Virus record (IMG/VR): IMGVR_UViG_3300037189_019798
Span: 1 to 23,979 of that record
Source: a virus
Direction: 5' to 3' (one strand)
Length of the DNA: 23,979 bases
This document shows, in pieces, positions 11,221 to 17,232 of the stretch. The translations under genes were made by a program, and so were the position numbers. The notes under the pieces were generated by a model, which saw only the letters and a program-made list of their open reading frames with translations, made no database searches and was not told where the DNA came from. Positions within the stretch are counted from its first letter, which is position 1, and every line of letters begins with the position of its first letter.

Positions 11221-11688
11221 ATGCAGCTCTCGCCCTCGTTCTCGCTCGCCGAGCTCAGCCGCTCAGAGGCCGCCGCCCGTCGCGGGCTCGACAACACGCC
11301 GCCGCCGGAGGTCATCGAGAACCTGCGGGCCCTTTGCCTGCAGGTCCTGCAGCCCCTGCGCAACGGGCTCGGTCGTCCGATTCGCATCAACAGCGGGTAC
11401 CGCGGGCCGGCAGCGAACCGGGCCGTCGGCGGCAAGGCCTCGAGCCAGCACGCCGCAGGCGAGGCCGCCGACATCGAGTCCGCAGGCGTCGACACAAAGC
11501 GCCTCGCGCAGACCATCGTCGACCTCAGCCTGCCGTTCGACCAGCTCATCCTTGAGTTTTACGTCGTCGGCGAGCCGCGGTCGGGCTGGGTGCATGTCTC
11601 CCACAAGCGCAACGGCCCGCAGCGCGGCGAGGTGCTGCGAGCCGTTCGGCTGCCTGCGGGCGTCAGCTACTTGCCGGGGCTGTCCTGA
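11221..11688 (+). CDS. M15-family zinc peptidase, probable endolysin (155 aa)
   Basis: This is the only plus-strand gene supported in the window. The protein matches the Peptidase_M15_3 / DD-carboxypeptidase-like fold. It contains INSGYRGPAANRAVGG (56-71), the zinc motif SxHxxGxAxD as SQHAAGEAAD (75-84, ligands His77 and Asp84) and WVHVS (123-127, third ligand His125). The catalytic acid is probably in the PFDQLILEF segment (105-113). M15 enzymes cut peptide bonds in peptidoglycan stems or bridges and serve as phage endolysins or tail-associated lysins. There is no signal peptide or cell-wall-binding domain, so release would need a holin. I chose ATG 11221 because it follows a TACCCT box; a longer frame from 11131 would overlap the divergent gene. 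Its 3' end overlaps the membrane protein gene on the other strand by 22 bases. Confidence 0.9.
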   Translation: MQLSPSFSLAELSRSEAAARRGLDNTPPPEVIENLRALCLQVLQPLRNGLGRPIRINSGYRGPAANRAVGGKASSQHAAGEAADIESAGVDTKRLAQTIVDLSLPFDQLILEFYVVGEPRSGWVHVSHKRNGPQRGEVLRAVRLPAGVSYLPGLS

Positions 11689-12047
11689 TGATGGACGCCG
11701 CGGGCTGCATCGAGCGCATCGGCCGTCGCCTGCGCAGCGTCGGCTTCGTCCTGCAGCTGCAGCGCGACCTTGTCGTTGCCGGCGTCGCTGTCGGCCAGCA
11801 GCTCGGCCGCGCGGCGGCGCTTGGCTGCTGCGAGGGCCCGCTGCCGGGTCGCGATGGCAATCAACACGCGGGCACCCAGCCAGGCGAGGACGGGGCCGGC
11901 GAGGCTGCCGAGGTACGGCAGCCAGCCAGGCACGCCCGCCGGCGCTGGCGTCGTCGTGGCGACCGCTAGCGTGGCGAGGGTTGACGTAGCCCCTGCAGCC
12001 ATGGCGCCCGTGTGCTCGCCGATGATGCTGACCACCCCATGAGTCAT
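11667..12047 (-). CDS. Small membrane protein, holin or spanin-like candidate (126 aa)
   Basis: ATG at 12047 shares one base with the patatin stop (TGATG) and has GGAGGGG about 4-5 bases upstream. The protein has a weakly hydrophobic N-terminal stretch (residues 14-31), one clear membrane segment (about 42-66, GWLPYLGSLAGPVLAWLGAR onward), a strongly basic turn (RQRALAAAKRRR, 68-79), and an Ala/Asp/Gln-rich cytoplasmic-type helix (80-116). Small size, one or two membrane spans, a highly charged C-terminus and a convergent M15 peptidase fit a class II/III holin. The long helical tail would also suit an i-spanin or membrane-tethering role. No known holin family is evident to me. Its 3' end overlaps the opposing peptidase gene by 22 bases. 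Confidence 0.68.
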   Translation of the reverse strand: MTHGVVSIIGEHTGAMAAGATSTLATLAVATTTPAPAGVPGWLPYLGSLAGPVLAWLGARVLIAIATRQRALAAAKRRRAAELLADSDAGNDKVALQLQDEADAAQATADALDAARGVHHQDSPGK

Positions 12048-12853
12048 CACCCCTCCAGCTGCGCGCGCCGCATCGCCTCGATGCCTGCGTCCCAGCGCTG
12101 CTGAATATCGTCCGTGGAGAGGGAGAAGTCGAGCCCATCGCCGCCCGGCACGTCGACGATGGAGACGGCCGCCTTGTCGCTGCGGTAGGCGTTGTCCGCC
12201 GCCCATTGCCGCAGGCCGGCGAGGGCCCACAGATAGGCCTTGAGGTCGCGCACCGGACGCAGACCGTCTCGCCGCTGCGCCGGCCGGATGCCGACCGTCG
12301 GCGTGTCGGGCTGGTCGTCGAACAGGTCGAGCCCGAAATTCATTGACACGCCGCCGTCGACGTGAAGCCGGTTGCCGACGCCGAGCCCGCGAATCTCCTG
12401 CGCAGCGAACACGCCGGGGATAGCGGCCGTTGCTGTCGCTGCGTCCTCGACGAGCACGTTCGGCGTCGCCCAGGAGGACAGCACCCGGGGCGCGCGCGCG
12501 TACAGGTCGCCGACGACGACGGCGACGGGGCGCCGGGCATCGCCGAGGCGGGCGCCCTCGCCGATGAGGTTCCGCGCCGTCGCCCGCAGCGCATCGCCCC
12601 TGCACCAGCCATAGCGCGACAGGAAGCAGCCGAGGTCGCCGTCGAGCAGCCGGTTGTCAGCGAGCGCATGCGCAAGGACGGCCTGCAGGCGCTCGGGGTC
12701 GACGTCGAACGCGACGGCCAGCGCGACCAGCCCGCCCGCCGAGGTGCCGGCGACGCGGCGAATGACGCGCCGTTGACGGAGCTCGTAGGCCGCGGCGGCG
12801 AGGCCGACGCAGTTGGAGCCGCCGCCCTGCAGGACGACGTCGACGCCCGTCAT
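12047..12853 (-). CDS. Patatin-like phospholipase (268 aa)
   Basis: The protein has the complete patatin signature: an oxyanion-hole stretch VVLQGGGSNCVG (6-17), the nucleophile elbow GTSAG (36-40, Ser38) and the dyad motif HVDGG (164-168, Asp166). Patatins are acyl hydrolases that cut fatty acids from phospholipids or other lipids, using a Ser-Asp dyad. The usual basic residue in the oxyanion loop is not obvious (SNCVG follows GGG), so activity could differ. The length is near a minimal patatin domain. No signal peptide is present, so it would act from the cytoplasm or after lysis. It starts in an ATGA overlap with the gene before and ends in a TGATG overlap with a small membrane protein. 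Association with membrane proteins and a nearby endolysin suggests a role in envelope disruption; superinfection exclusion or lysogenic conversion are alternatives. Confidence 0.88.
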   Translation of the reverse strand: MTGVDVVLQGGGSNCVGLAAAAYELRQRRVIRRVAGTSAGGLVALAVAFDVDPERLQAVLAHALADNRLLDGDLGCFLSRYGWCRGDALRATARNLIGEGARLGDARRPVAVVVGDLYARAPRVLSSWATPNVLVEDAATATAAIPGVFAAQEIRGLGVGNRLHVDGGVSMNFGLDLFDDQPDTPTVGIRPAQRRDGLRPVRDLKAYLWALAGLRQWAADNAYRSDKAAVSIVDVPGGDGLDFSLSTDDIQQRWDAGIEAMRRAQLEG

Positions 12854-13380
12854 GGCGCACCCGGGCCGGCATCGATGGCCAGCAGGTTGAACGCCTCGGT
12901 GCGCTCCTCGGGCGCCGAGCTGCCCGCCCATTGCACCGGCAGTCCGGCCGGCGAGGTCGGCGTGAGCGTCGCGAGAACCTCGCCGCTGACGTTGCCCCCG
13001 GCGTCCTGCCCGGTGAGCGCCTGCCGCCACTCGGCCGCCTGCTGACGGGACAGCGCGACGGCGACGACGCAGCCAGAGTCGGCAGCGACGGTGCGGAACC
13101 CGTTGATTGCGCCGCCCTCGAGCAGCGCCACGAGGATGCGCGCCGCCTTCGCCTGGTCGCCCTCGAGGCCGGTCGCCTCGCCGGGCCGGTCGCCGCCGCC
13201 CTCGAGCAGGGTCGGGCATTGCTCGGCCGCCGGGCGGGCCGCCATGACGCAGTCACCCTCGGGGGCGCACTCGACGATGAGCTCGGCGCCGGGCTCGAGG
13301 ACGCCCTGCACGATGGTGACGCCGCCGACGATGGAGCCGGCGAGCGCGACGAGAAGACCGGCGAGCGTGGTTCGGTTCAT
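12850..13380 (-). CDS. Membrane-anchored or exported Cys-containing protein (176 aa)
   Basis: ATG at 13380 overlaps the stop of the LamG-like gene (ATGA); 57 bases of upstream open frame are ignored because they would lie inside that gene. Residues 1-5 (MNRTT) precede a hydrophobic segment (LAGLLVALAGSIVGGVTIV, about 6-24), which is either an uncleaved anchor or a signal peptide. The remaining domain is acidic and soluble and has four Cys (38, 44, 55, 104), consistent with disulfides outside the cytoplasm. A helix (GDQAKAARILVALLEGG, about 74-90) and SRQQAAEWRQALTG are notable. I do not recognise the family. Being just upstream of the phospholipase and a holin-like gene, it could be a regulator, partner or spanin-type component of an envelope-acting system. 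Confidence 0.7.
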   Translation of the reverse strand: MNRTTLAGLLVALAGSIVGGVTIVQGVLEPGAELIVECAPEGDCVMAARPAAEQCPTLLEGGGDRPGEATGLEGDQAKAARILVALLEGGAINGFRTVAADSGCVVAVALSRQQAAEWRQALTGQDAGGNVSGEVLATLTPTSPAGLPVQWAGSSAPEERTEAFNLLAIDAGPGAP

Positions 13381-15545
13381 GGGGCCACCGTCGGGTCGGC
13401 GAGGGACGACCAGAGACGAACGCGGGAGACAAGGCACGCGGGCTGCGCAGCCGTCGAGCCTGCGGTGCCGAGGTAGATGAGCGATGACGCGACGGTCGGC
13501 AGCGTGGCGAGCGTGTCCGTGCCGATGCTGACGCCGTCGTAGTAGGCCGTGATGTTGTTCGTCGCCATCGTCTGCCGCAGCGAGTGAGCGACGCCGTCAG
13601 AGACGTCACCGGAGGCCGCGACGATGGACCATTGCGCCGTCGAAACGGTCGCATCGGCGAGGGCCCGGTCGGCGGCAGCGTCGACGCCGAGGCGCGCGAA
13701 GTCGGTCGCGCCAACGCCAACGCTGGCAAACGCGGAGGACGCTTGCGTGTCATGCGGTGGGCACAGCACCGCGACGTCCATCGTCGACGGGCTGCCGGCG
13801 TAGTGGTTCGCGCCGCTGAAGCGCACGTCGTCCGCGTTGCGCGCCACGCTGGCCGTCGTCGTCGCGAGGTAGCTGGTCGCCATCGGGAACGCCTCGACGC
13901 GCACGCCCCAGAAGCCACAGTCCACAGTCGCATCGGCGTCGGTGTAGGGCGTGACGCCGTCGGATGGCGCACACAGCAGGTCGTGGTCGTTGAGTGCCGC
14001 CGTGCCGGTGTAGGTGATGCTGACGCGGCAGAGGTTAACGTCGGCCACGCCGTCGCCAGTCGTGTCGATAGGCCAGCGGGAAGCGGTCGCCTGCGTCACG
14101 CCCGCCTGCACGGTGCCGACAGCCGCAGCGCAGTCTTGCCCGACGGTGCATGTCGCGCACGCGGTCAGGTCGAACCATGCGGCACCGTTGGCGATGGTGT
14201 TGTCGCGCAGCGCGACGAAGGTCTGCGCACCGGCGCGAGCCCACGCGCTGAACGTGTGTGTGGCGGCCGTCAGCGTGATGGCTTGTCGCAGTCCGTGCTC
14301 ACCCAAGCTGTTGTTGCCGTCGATGTCGTCTCCGGTGACGGTCAGGTCTGCGCCTGCAAACGCATCGGCGAGGACGTTGTCTCCGACGGTGATGGCGGCC
14401 CACGTCGTGCCCAGCGTCTGCGACTGCAGCGCGATGTTGCTGACAGCGGGTTCGCTCATGTAGCCGGCAACGACGGTGCCGCCGCTGTGCGTGCGACGAG
14501 CGACGCGCGGGGCGCCGTTACCCGTCAGGTAGAGGTGGCGCACGCTGCCGTCGACGACGTCAACGTGTGCGGTGGTGGCGCGCGTCAGCGCGGTCGGCGC
14601 CCCATTGTCGGCGACGGCCGGCAGCACGCCGAACGCAGTCGCAGCGCGTCTCCTAGCAATCTCACCCCATTGCGTCGGATTCGTCGCGCCGCCGGCAAAG
14701 CAGCCTGCGCAGCGCCAGACGTGCAGGGTCGATGTGAGGGCGCCGCCAGCAATGGCGCTGCCAGATGGGCCGCCGTTGGCGAACAGCGCGGCGTTGTTCA
14801 GGGAGCCGCTTCGTGCGCTGATGTCGACGCCGGTGCCGGCTGCGCCGTTCAGGTAGCCAAACGAGCCGTTCGTGCTTGCTTCGCTGCGGTCAGCAAAAAA
14901 CAGCAGGTGGGCGAAGGCGACGTTCGCGGCGGATGCGGTGACGATGGCCGCTGTCGTCGAGGCGGTTCGCAGGCTCAGCCGAGGAGCGGTCGTGAACCCT
15001 CCGCTGATGGCCCAGCCGTCGGCTCCAGCGATGCCCTTGTCGACCAGGCTGGCGTTGGCGCTTCCCAGGCGACCCACCCACTCTACGACGAGGTCATCGG
15101 TGCCAAGGTCGCCGACGTTCGATGCCGAGGCGCTGTGCGTCTTTCCGGCCGAGGCATAGCTGACGCCTCGTTCAGACGCATCGGCGGCGTGGAACATCGT
15201 ATTGATCGTCGTCGTCGGCGATGCGCCCGCGCCCGTCTCGGCGAGGACGACGTTTCCGCTGCTGTCGCGGCATGTCCAGTTGGTGCCGCTGATGCCCTGG
15301 GCGTCGCACGCGAGGACGAGAGTCATCGTCGTGCTGTTGACCACGAGGCTATCCGGCAGGTCGTTCGGCGTCGCCGTGCCGGCGACGAGCTCGAAGACGG
15401 GCGCCGGCGCGACGTTGCCGGTAGCCGGAGGACGGTCGAACCCGCTGTCGGATCCGACGAGCCATGCTTCCTCGCCGAGGATGTACTGCGCGCGCGCGCC
15501 GCCAGCAGCCAGCGCCAGCGCGGCGAAGAAGGCTGCGCGTCTCAT
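13377..15545 (-). CDS. Secreted LamG-like (concanavalin fold) protein (722 aa)
   Basis: I chose ATG 15545, which makes an ATGA overlap with the upstream stop and exposes a clear signal peptide (MRRAAFFAALALAAGGARA, likely cut after residue 19). The frame stays open upstream to 15794, but that part is Arg/His-rich shadow. After export the protein shows a first laminin-G-like beta-sandwich (about 110-300, with VVEWVGRLGS, LVDKGIAGADGW and LLFFADRSEAS), a carbohydrate-module-like middle (about 400-590, with HTFSAWARAGAQTFVALRD) and a second LamG-like domain at the C-terminus (about 600-715, ending SLIYLG and CLVSRVRLWSS). It has more than ten Cys, several in close pairs (CAGC, CATC), fitting an oxidising location. 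LamG domains bind sugars or proteins. A cleavable signal peptide is unusual for a virion protein, so it may decorate the host surface or be released at lysis. Confidence 0.8.
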   Translation of the reverse strand: MRRAAFFAALALAAGGARAQYILGEEAWLVGSDSGFDRPPATGNVAPAPVFELVAGTATPNDLPDSLVVNSTTMTLVLACDAQGISGTNWTCRDSSGNVVLAETGAGASPTTTINTMFHAADASERGVSYASAGKTHSASASNVGDLGTDDLVVEWVGRLGSANASLVDKGIAGADGWAISGGFTTAPRLSLRTASTTAAIVTASAANVAFAHLLFFADRSEASTNGSFGYLNGAAGTGVDISARSGSLNNAALFANGGPSGSAIAGGALTSTLHVWRCAGCFAGGATNPTQWGEIARRRAATAFGVLPAVADNGAPTALTRATTAHVDVVDGSVRHLYLTGNGAPRVARRTHSGGTVVAGYMSEPAVSNIALQSQTLGTTWAAITVGDNVLADAFAGADLTVTGDDIDGNNSLGEHGLRQAITLTAATHTFSAWARAGAQTFVALRDNTIANGAAWFDLTACATCTVGQDCAAAVGTVQAGVTQATASRWPIDTTGDGVADVNLCRVSITYTGTAALNDHDLLCAPSDGVTPYTDADATVDCGFWGVRVEAFPMATSYLATTTASVARNADDVRFSGANHYAGSPSTMDVAVLCPPHDTQASSAFASVGVGATDFARLGVDAAADRALADATVSTAQWSIVAASGDVSDGVAHSLRQTMATNNITAYYDGVSIGTDTLATLPTVASSLIYLGTAGSTAAQPACLVSRVRLWSSLADPTVAP

Positions 15546-15940
15546 TGCGCGGTCACAAGGAAGCGGCATTGAAGGACCGTCGTGCCGGCCGTCGTGATGC
15601 AGCGCTCGGGCGTCTGCACGTTCGAGCCGAAGCGGTCGCCGCTGACGTAGTCGACGCCATTCGACGTGGTCAGCGCGGCGCCTGCGCCGGTCTTGCTGCC
15701 GACCGTGACGTTGCCCTTGGCCGTACATTCGTAGCTGATGAGGTTGAACCCACCCGTCGGCTGAATGGCGATGCCGCCGGCCGTCGTGTCGCATGTGATG
15801 CGCTCGGCGCGGGGGAACGCCGGGCCAACCTTGACCGCCGCGTCACGGACGGCCTCGACCACGGACACCGGCGACGAGAAGGCATAGAGGGCACCGGCGA
15901 ACGACAGCACGCCGGCGATGATGAGAAGACGATTGCGCAT
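15542..15940 (-). CDS. Secreted small Cys-containing protein, first gene of envelope operon (132 aa)
   Basis: The protein starts MRNRLLIIAGVLSFAGALYA, a basic n-region and hydrophobic core with a plausible signal peptidase site after residue 20. The mature part is beta-type with four Cys (50, 72, 114, 125) that could form two disulfides; segments include GGFNLISYECTAKGNVTVG and ERCITTAGTTVLQCRFLV. This resembles small periplasmic or surface beta-sandwich proteins, but I do not recognise a family. ATG 15940 follows a TTGACC-17-TACTTT promoter with only 5 bases between the -10 box and the start, and no Shine-Dalgarno site, so it is probably translated from a leaderless mRNA. Its stop overlaps the start of the LamG-like gene, tying the two together. 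They may act as a pair outside the cell. Confidence 0.76.
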   Translation of the reverse strand: MRNRLLIIAGVLSFAGALYAFSSPVSVVEAVRDAAVKVGPAFPRAERITCDTTAGGIAIQPTGGFNLISYECTAKGNVTVGSKTGAGAALTTSNGVDYVSGDRFGSNVQTPERCITTAGTTVLQCRFLVTAQ

Positions 15941-15945
15941 GGCGA

Positions 15946-15974
15946 AAAGTACCCCGGCAAAGGTGGACGGTCAA
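15946..15974 (-). promoter_or_regulatory. Promoter of envelope operon: TTGACC-17 bp-TACTTT, leaderless
   Basis: On the minus strand a -35 element TTGACC (15969-15974) and a -10 element TACTTT (15946-15951) are separated by exactly 17 bp. The ATG at 15940 follows after 5 bases, so the transcript would start on or next to the start codon. This is the best sigma-70-type promoter in the window. It lies directly after a strong hairpin that separates it from the head genes. Confidence 0.75.
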
Positions 15975-15978
15975 AGCA

Positions 15979-16010
15979 CCGCGCCCGCCATCAAGGGACA
16001 GCGGGCGCGG
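15979..16010 (-). terminator. Hairpin ending the head operon
   Basis: CCGCGCCCGC (15979-15988) pairs with GCGGGCGCGG (16001-16010) in a perfect 10-bp stem with a 12-base loop. It lies 19 bases after the stop of the decoration-like gene on the minus strand. The following bases (TGCTTTGACC) contain only a short T run, so termination may be weak or factor-aided. The hairpin separates the head genes from the independent promoter of the envelope operon. Confidence 0.6.
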
Positions 16011-16029
16011 CGTCAGTCATCTGGAAGGC

Positions 16030-17192: not shown

Positions 17193-17224
17193 AAAAAGGA
17201 GGGGGCCCGCGGGTGCGGGCCCCC
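17193..17224 (-). terminator. Intrinsic terminator after the major capsid gene
   Basis: On the minus strand GGGGGCCCGC pairs perfectly with GCGGGCCCCC (10-bp GC stem, 4-base loop, 17201-17224) and is followed by TCCTTTTT (17193-17200). It begins 8 bases after the capsid stop. The structure matches a rho-independent terminator. Because no promoter is seen before the next gene, it probably acts as a partial terminator that sets the capsid message above the downstream genes. Confidence 0.83.
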
Positions 17225-17232
17225 TCAGGCGC

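Follow-up and report, generated by a model that had tools for sequence, protein, structure and literature searches.

A candidate mobile module of exported proteins beside an interchangeable lysis block in a metagenomic phage fragment

We analyzed IMG/VR virus record IMGVR_UViG_3300037189_019798, a linear viral fragment of 23,979 bases with 69% G+C, which we call the window in its full length. Its right side carries the terminase (phrog_2, 1.4e-31), the portal, and minor head and neck-type genes, and its left side carries tail-type genes. All genes but one, an M15_3 peptidase, are encoded on the minus strand. Between the head and tail modules lie five genes, named A to E here, of which A, B, and C are the main subject of this work. 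An earlier description made from the letters of the DNA (the sequence-only reading) had presented these five genes as joined by overlaps of 1 or 4 bases, and the reading frames are indeed present, with successive overlaps of 4, 4, 4, and 1 bases. The features of the region, with protein lengths in amino acids (aa) and cysteines written as Cys, are the following.

15977-16012, minus strand: GC-rich hairpin without a T-run, between the last head gene and A (RNA fold z -2.7).
15946-15974, minus strand: promoter-like site TTGACC-17-TACTTT, ending 5 bases ahead of the ATG of A.
15542-15940, minus strand: gene A, a small protein of 132 aa, predicted to be exported, with an N-terminal hydrophobic segment and 4 Cys.
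13377-15545, minus strand: gene B, a protein of 722 aa, predicted to be exported, with LamG-like and spike-fibre domains and 12 Cys.
12850-13380, minus strand: gene C, a protein of 176 aa with a predicted N-terminal membrane anchor and a domain of ~140 aa with 4 invariant Cys.
12047-12853, minus strand: gene D, a patatin-like phospholipase of 268 aa without export signal (PF01734, GTSAG and DGG motifs).
11667-12047, minus strand: gene E, a small membrane protein of 126 aa with a charged C-terminus (37% identity to L064:12803-13159).
11221-11688, plus strand: M15_3 peptidase (endolysin), start codon inferred (PF08291 2.8e-21; phrog_894 endolysin 3.9e-41).

The four Cys counted in each of A and C, the patatin family of D, and the flanking hairpin had all been part of the sequence-only reading, and each of them held.

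To compare the region across phages, we collected relatives with a terminase search, which gave 38 viral loci, and further backbones through searches with B and C (labels such as L064 or G005 denote these records). The contigs compared are metagenomic fragments, and the collections were searched by pattern and by BLAST, such that distant relatives are undercounted. Gene A lies directly 5' of B on all 12 contigs, and C directly 3' of B on all 10 that reach that far. The three genes are found on at least three unrelated backbones: between head and tail in the lineage of the window, between portal and scaffold in L061 and L063, and behind a J-like tail gene in L064 and L001, where A is very different in sequence and still exported by prediction and Cys-containing. 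A mosaic fourth backbone, L067, has a distant terminase and capsid together with a close minor head gene. In the phylogenetic tree of B, a clade with 100/100 support contains the B proteins of four backbone types. Hence, B has been transferred between phages. The ratio of nonsynonymous to synonymous substitution rates (dN/dS) is ~0.13-0.4 for the three genes; judged by these values, A, B, and C are under purifying selection. The spot between head and tail genes holds A-B-C in the window itself and in G003, G004, G005, G013, G018, and G019. It is filled by proteins without export signals, some of 370-430 aa, in G002, G006, G010, and G011, and it is empty in the L023-L034 group, where the head genes directly meet the tail genes. 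The same spot in L054 (1862-3067) encodes an A/T/V-rich repeat protein, and a similar gene is found in L045 (380-401 aa, no family match).

The sequence-only reading had also given three of the genes N-terminal export signals. In our analysis, which drew on hydropathy, motifs resembling cleavage sites, and conservation, A, B, and C each have a hydrophobic N-terminus preceded by basic residues, and this character is conserved. Of the 29 genes compared, none has a more hydrophobic N-terminus than A and C, and the hydrophobic segment of A is found in 11 of 11 homologues or positional equivalents. B has a cleavage-like site (ARA before the cut, Q after it). Its N-terminal segment varies in sequence among homologues and retains a signal-like character, with a signal-peptide layout in the homologues that have a clear start and not the alternating I/L-A/G pattern known from the Rhodobacter capsulatus gene transfer agent (RcGTA). 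Inspection of the N-termini of A, B, and C in the window revealed no lipobox Cys. All 12 Cys of B are invariant across six full-length homologues, as are the 4 Cys of C across nine. Searches of Pfam, PHROG, and NCBIfam gave no convincing family match for A, the gene directly upstream of B. The structural matches of the model of C (Foldseek, best E-value 0.025; VIA-align, best Z 5.3, to I-DmoI and topoisomerase II) were discarded as common arrangements.

The family matches of B point to an adhesin. Residues 365-571 match the NCBIfam family NF048003, 'phage head spike fiber domain' (55.5 bits for a cut-off of 36), which is also found in 10 of 11 homologues at a looser limit. Residues ~60-310 were modelled by AlphaFold2 (AF2) as a concanavalin A-like domain, and the viral Foldseek matches of this part are phage LamG and tail proteins; the full-length model has a mean predicted local distance difference test score (pLDDT) of 45, with only ~62-310 usable. 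Residues 597-714 show a weak match to LamG_3 of Pfam, at 20.5 for a cut-off of 27.6 in the window copy and at 1.6e-8 in a relative. The earlier naming of B as a LamG protein is borne out by the relative, and in the window its C-terminal match stays below the Pfam cut-off. B shares the concanavalin A-like domain with phage LamG tail and fibre proteins (BFVD; tailspike of cyanopodophage Pan3, 9vyh), but it is Cys-rich and predicted to be exported. The NF048003 domain is also present in a tail protein without export signal in G005, G008, G006, G011, G012, and G015, and in G005 this protein exists alongside an exported B. Export would therefore be specific to B and not tied to the domain. Some relatives (L086, L087, L088, L090-L092, 1369-2727 in the match frame) have a spike-fibre domain inserted in their homologue of tail gene g5125; the presence of this domain varies within the lineage, and the window copy is without it. 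Matches of B to clostridial neurotoxin binding domains were rejected, as they reflect the shared concanavalin A-like fold at ~10% identity, with no other toxin feature. B itself has no match in phage records at 1e-5, and it is absent from the genome contig collection (pattern search) and from 195 Myxococcota genomes.

Proteins with the spike domain are found in 7 of these 195 genomes, and two of the seven (L111 and L112) have prophage-like regions with a layout resembling A-B-C. L112 encodes a tail fibre, an exported 113-aa Cys protein, an exported 636-aa spike protein, and an anchored Cys protein, followed by a membrane/coiled-coil protein and further small proteins. L111 has an integrase nearby and encodes exported proteins of 123 and 646 aa, an anchored protein of 214 aa (8 Cys), and small membrane proteins. 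In a third case, the phage record MW202637 (L114), an exported Cys protein of 112 aa, which is not annotated, is followed by a spike-type protein of 489 aa and a protein of 170 aa, both of which start like lipoproteins (LLGAMGC and MFMSC); lipobox-like motifs were seen only in these L114 analogues. The A and C analogues of L111, L112, and MW202637 have no detectable similarity to A and C. More exported fibre-like or small proteins adjoin the B-like genes at 7195-8412 in L111 and 10082-11826 in L114. The nearest cellular relatives of the terminase are two loci of a Myxococcales metagenome-assembled genome (48-49% identical), and the host is, from such matches, probably a Myxococcota-like diderm.

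The domains of B suggest that A and B might instead be virion parts, forming a capsid spike with A as the small base and B as the fibre, whose hydrophobic N-termini would be assembly peptides. In RcGTA, the fibre with this spike domain stands on a small base, a jelly-roll protein encoded just upstream, and enables the particle to attach to the polysaccharide capsule of the host (PMC7296036). The NF048003 domain, which is above cut-off in B (GTA_spike_fiber), takes its name from the fibre of the RcGTA head spikes GhsA/GhsB (PMC7296036, PMC6854486), and in RcGTA as in the window a small gene precedes the fibre gene (base Rcc01079, fibre Rcc01080; PMC7296036). Moreover, the hydrophobic N-terminus of the RcGTA fibre binds the base pentamer, the Foldseek matches of B are the phage LamG and tail proteins mentioned above, and the genes lie among head genes. 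However, the N-termini are of the n-h-c signal-peptide type with AxA-like sites, unlike the alternating I-A-L-G-L-G-L peptide, and A too has one of signal type. The invariance of the 12 Cys of B and the 4 of C, the lipobox-like motifs in the B-like and C-like proteins of MW202637, and the lack of such N-termini in tail proteins sharing the spike domain also speak against this explanation. What sets A-B-C apart from the RcGTA spikes are the export signals or anchor and the conserved Cys of its proteins, the two additional LamG-like domains of B, and the coupling to lysis genes. We regard the capsid spike as the main rival explanation and a doubtful one; if it were correct, the export signals on these virion spikes would be out of the ordinary for a tailed phage.

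What follows C differs between phages. In relatives, the order is X1 (77-82 aa, membrane segment and coiled coil), X2 (73 aa, with a single membrane segment), X3 (~180 aa), a metallophosphoesterase, and X5. X3 has no match in Pfam, PHROG, or NCBIfam, and its label as a C39-type peptidase is from a motif only (SGC...GDHF/W...DP). In the window, this place is occupied by D, E, and the M15 endolysin. Every inspected backbone has membrane proteins and (mostly) a peptidase right behind C, and in L064 the counterpart of E, 37% identical over the length of E, stands between A-B-C-X2 and a CHAP endolysin. We infer that D-E-M15 is a variant of an interchangeable lysis block. Like a holin/endolysin/spanin cassette, this block includes an endolysin (phrog_894 in the window, CHAP in L064). 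The small membrane proteins E, X1, and X2 are in the right place and have no match to holin or spanin families at an E-value of 0.001 or better. By hydropathy only, E is hydrophobic at ~49-65 and charged beyond, with a second, weaker segment at 16-30, and it is a putative lysis-block protein, either holin-like or spanin-like. The M15 gene is convergent with E, the 3' ends overlapping by 22 bases, and as the only plus-strand gene it would need its own promoter.

For the patatin D (PF01734, 73.7 bits, 3e-20, cut-off 27.7), the closest matches among Myxococcota genomes are 37-39% identical. No phage record matched it at 1e-5, with only three marginal matches in Mycobacterium phages (E-value ~2), and 80 M15 loci contained no D-like match. 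We rejected D as a phospholipase of the CapV type from cyclic-oligonucleotide-based antiphage signaling systems (CBASS), since NF041079 gave 34.7 bits, far below the cut-off of 200. Meaningful sequence matches in the PDB were found for none of B, C, D, and the X3 peptidase. The closest parallel to D-E is in phage WO of Wolbachia, where a patatin and a small holin-like protein by the tail module were proposed as a novel lytic cassette (PMC9203015, PMC3173496). D shares the patatin family and the place by the tail module with that cassette, and E may correspond to its holin-like protein, which has fewer than 150 aa, one N-terminal membrane segment, and a charged C-terminus. The phage WO cassette has no classical endolysin; the window differs by its M15 endolysin and by the exported A-B-C ahead of D-E, and both cassettes are putative. 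An ankyrin protein, a feature of the phage WO cassette, had no match among the window genes in the Pfam search.

These results bear on two further explanations. The first, that of the sequence-only reading, is that A to E are one dedicated envelope system. The starts overlap throughout, as expected of such a unit, but the patatin is in none of the 23 related records searched, E aligns with a lysis-block protein, and the block behind C differs between backbones. Hence, the proposed co-occurrence stands for A-B-C, which stay together, whereas A to E do not form a single conserved system, because D is absent from the relatives and E belongs to the interchangeable block. We consider the five-gene system very improbable. 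In the second, A-B-C would be lysis machinery proper, weakening the outer membrane, capsule, or matrix of a polysaccharide-rich diderm such that holin and endolysin can finish lysis. The small membrane proteins and usual peptidase adjoining A-B-C in every inspected backbone, the predicted inner-membrane anchor of C, and the lack of a clear spanin in the window are in line with it. Yet no catalytic domain was recognised in A, B, or C, and L046, L051, L054, and L045 keep the lysis block X1-X5 without A-B-C, which makes this explanation unlikely.

The sequence-only reading had further given the five genes a near-consensus promoter of their own. The string is present, but TTGACC-17-TACTTT matches 8 of 12 consensus bases, and 32 sites in the window (both strands) score at least as high, so 'near-consensus' is too strong. 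At a threshold of 9/12, the promoter scan found no site in the region. The string is, however, the sole TTGAC-N16-19-TA...T site in the 24 kb window. At the equivalent position, L043 (= G013), which is the nearest relative, carries TTGACG-17-TAAATT, and it largely keeps the arms of the hairpin. Since the -10 element ends 5 bases before the ATG of A, the transcript would be leaderless. Other relatives have promoters of the TTGAC-N-TA...T form near early genes. A separate promoter for A-B-C is plausible in the window from these motifs, its conservation with the hairpin extending to the nearest relative only. In L041, L008, L053, and L044, A begins 5-28 bases past the head gene, which leaves no room for a promoter; it is therefore no feature of the A-B-C module.

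Lom-type adhesins are an example of phage proteins that decorate the surface of lysogens. In the same way, A-B-C might be a moron-type unit with its own promoter, serving lysogenic conversion or superinfection exclusion. Conservation of the promoter-like site and its hairpin across two phages, the mobility of the module between backbones, and the analogues in integrated prophages would fit. This is quite unlikely, however, given the four relatives without room for a promoter, the strand and coupling shared with late genes, and the adjoining lysis genes, which a lysogen has to keep switched off. Several relatives carry divergent promoter pairs of the form TTGAC-N17/18-TA...T with a common CAGATC element in the spacer (L057 8990/8999, L058 10048/10057, L056 1689/1698, L052 10365/10374, L047 3225/3234, L059 14459/14468, and L050 7727/7736), which by their sequence look like an immunity-type control region.

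We favor, at a probability of about one half, that A-B-C forms a module which moves between phages and whose exported proteins would act on the host envelope or within it near the end of infection, coupled to the interchangeable lysis block. We do so because the predicted export signals are conserved, the invariant Cys are even in number, one partner would be anchored, lipobox-like motifs occur in analogues, and the neighborhood of lysis genes is constant. An action in or on the envelope had been suggested earlier from the coupled export signals, and that suggestion keeps its basis in the conserved export and in the lysis genes found next to A-B-C wherever the sequence extends far enough and was inspected. 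Several points nevertheless speak against our interpretation. B consists of virion-type adhesin domains, which weakens the argument from export, and in some relatives the place of A-B-C is taken by a PHROG virion structural protein. No fold could be recognised for C (AF2, mean pLDDT 67, no convincing PDB match). In L046 (G008), A-B-C is deleted at 1839-2155, from codon 66 of A to codon 131 of C, with the lysis block intact and the DNA downstream 94.6% identical to the module-bearing G005. This is either a natural loss, and possibly a natural knock-out, or a misassembly; unless the contig is misassembled, A-B-C is dispensable in this phage. Finally, the link with lysis genes could come from nothing more than late transcription in common or a common site of insertion.

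If A-B-C acts in the envelope, A and B would pass Sec, be cleaved, and form disulfides, and C would remain anchored in the inner membrane, its Cys domain facing the periplasm, as the features conserved in homologues suggest. B would then be a free adhesin made of LamG and spike-fibre domains, of the kind with which virions bind surface polysaccharide. Together with A, it may occupy the surface glycans recognised by the phage's own fibres, which would keep progeny from adsorbing again to the dying cell, to debris from it, or to infected neighbors. D and E would then damage the inner membrane and M15 cut the wall, a sequence that we rate at even odds by analogy with the proposal for phage WO. 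Receptor masking by B with A is our leading specific guess, and a tentative one, by analogy with Llp of phage T5, a receptor-blocking lipoprotein that is expressed early and acts on FhuA (PMC9586334). The likeness is a working idea only, that of an exported phage protein keeping phage off receptor and cell fragments. The lipoprotein signal of Llp may be compared with the lipobox-like motif of the B-like protein of MW202637, but B in the window is a large secreted adhesin without lipobox, and the two have no known sequence relation.

More broadly, it is possible, though we put it well below even odds, that phages of Myxococcota-like hosts share a late module, undescribed as judged against the open literature (which is no proof of novelty), in which a disulfide-bonded, exported form of a virion adhesin and two exported partners enter the envelope just before lysis so that progeny leave unstuck. 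This module would move between unrelated phages as a unit and would have originated or persisted in at least five types of phage. If so, phages put receptor-binding domains of their own to a second use, in exported proteins whose action coincides with lysis; apart from small receptor-blocking lipoproteins, such a release step has hardly been described. The window would also be a second case for the patatin-lysis idea from phage WO, in a phage that has an ordinary endolysin as well.

An Rfam search gave zero matches. Elsewhere in the window, a strong terminator-like hairpin (12 pairs, T-run) lies right behind the capsid-type gene, at 17199-17226. A fibre-like block of three genes, g2019-g1807-g1150 (1150-2906 in the window, 14602-16331 in L053; 68-88% identity), has been relocated as a unit: its place in the window is behind the big tail gene, and in L053 it is found between g8582 and g7941.

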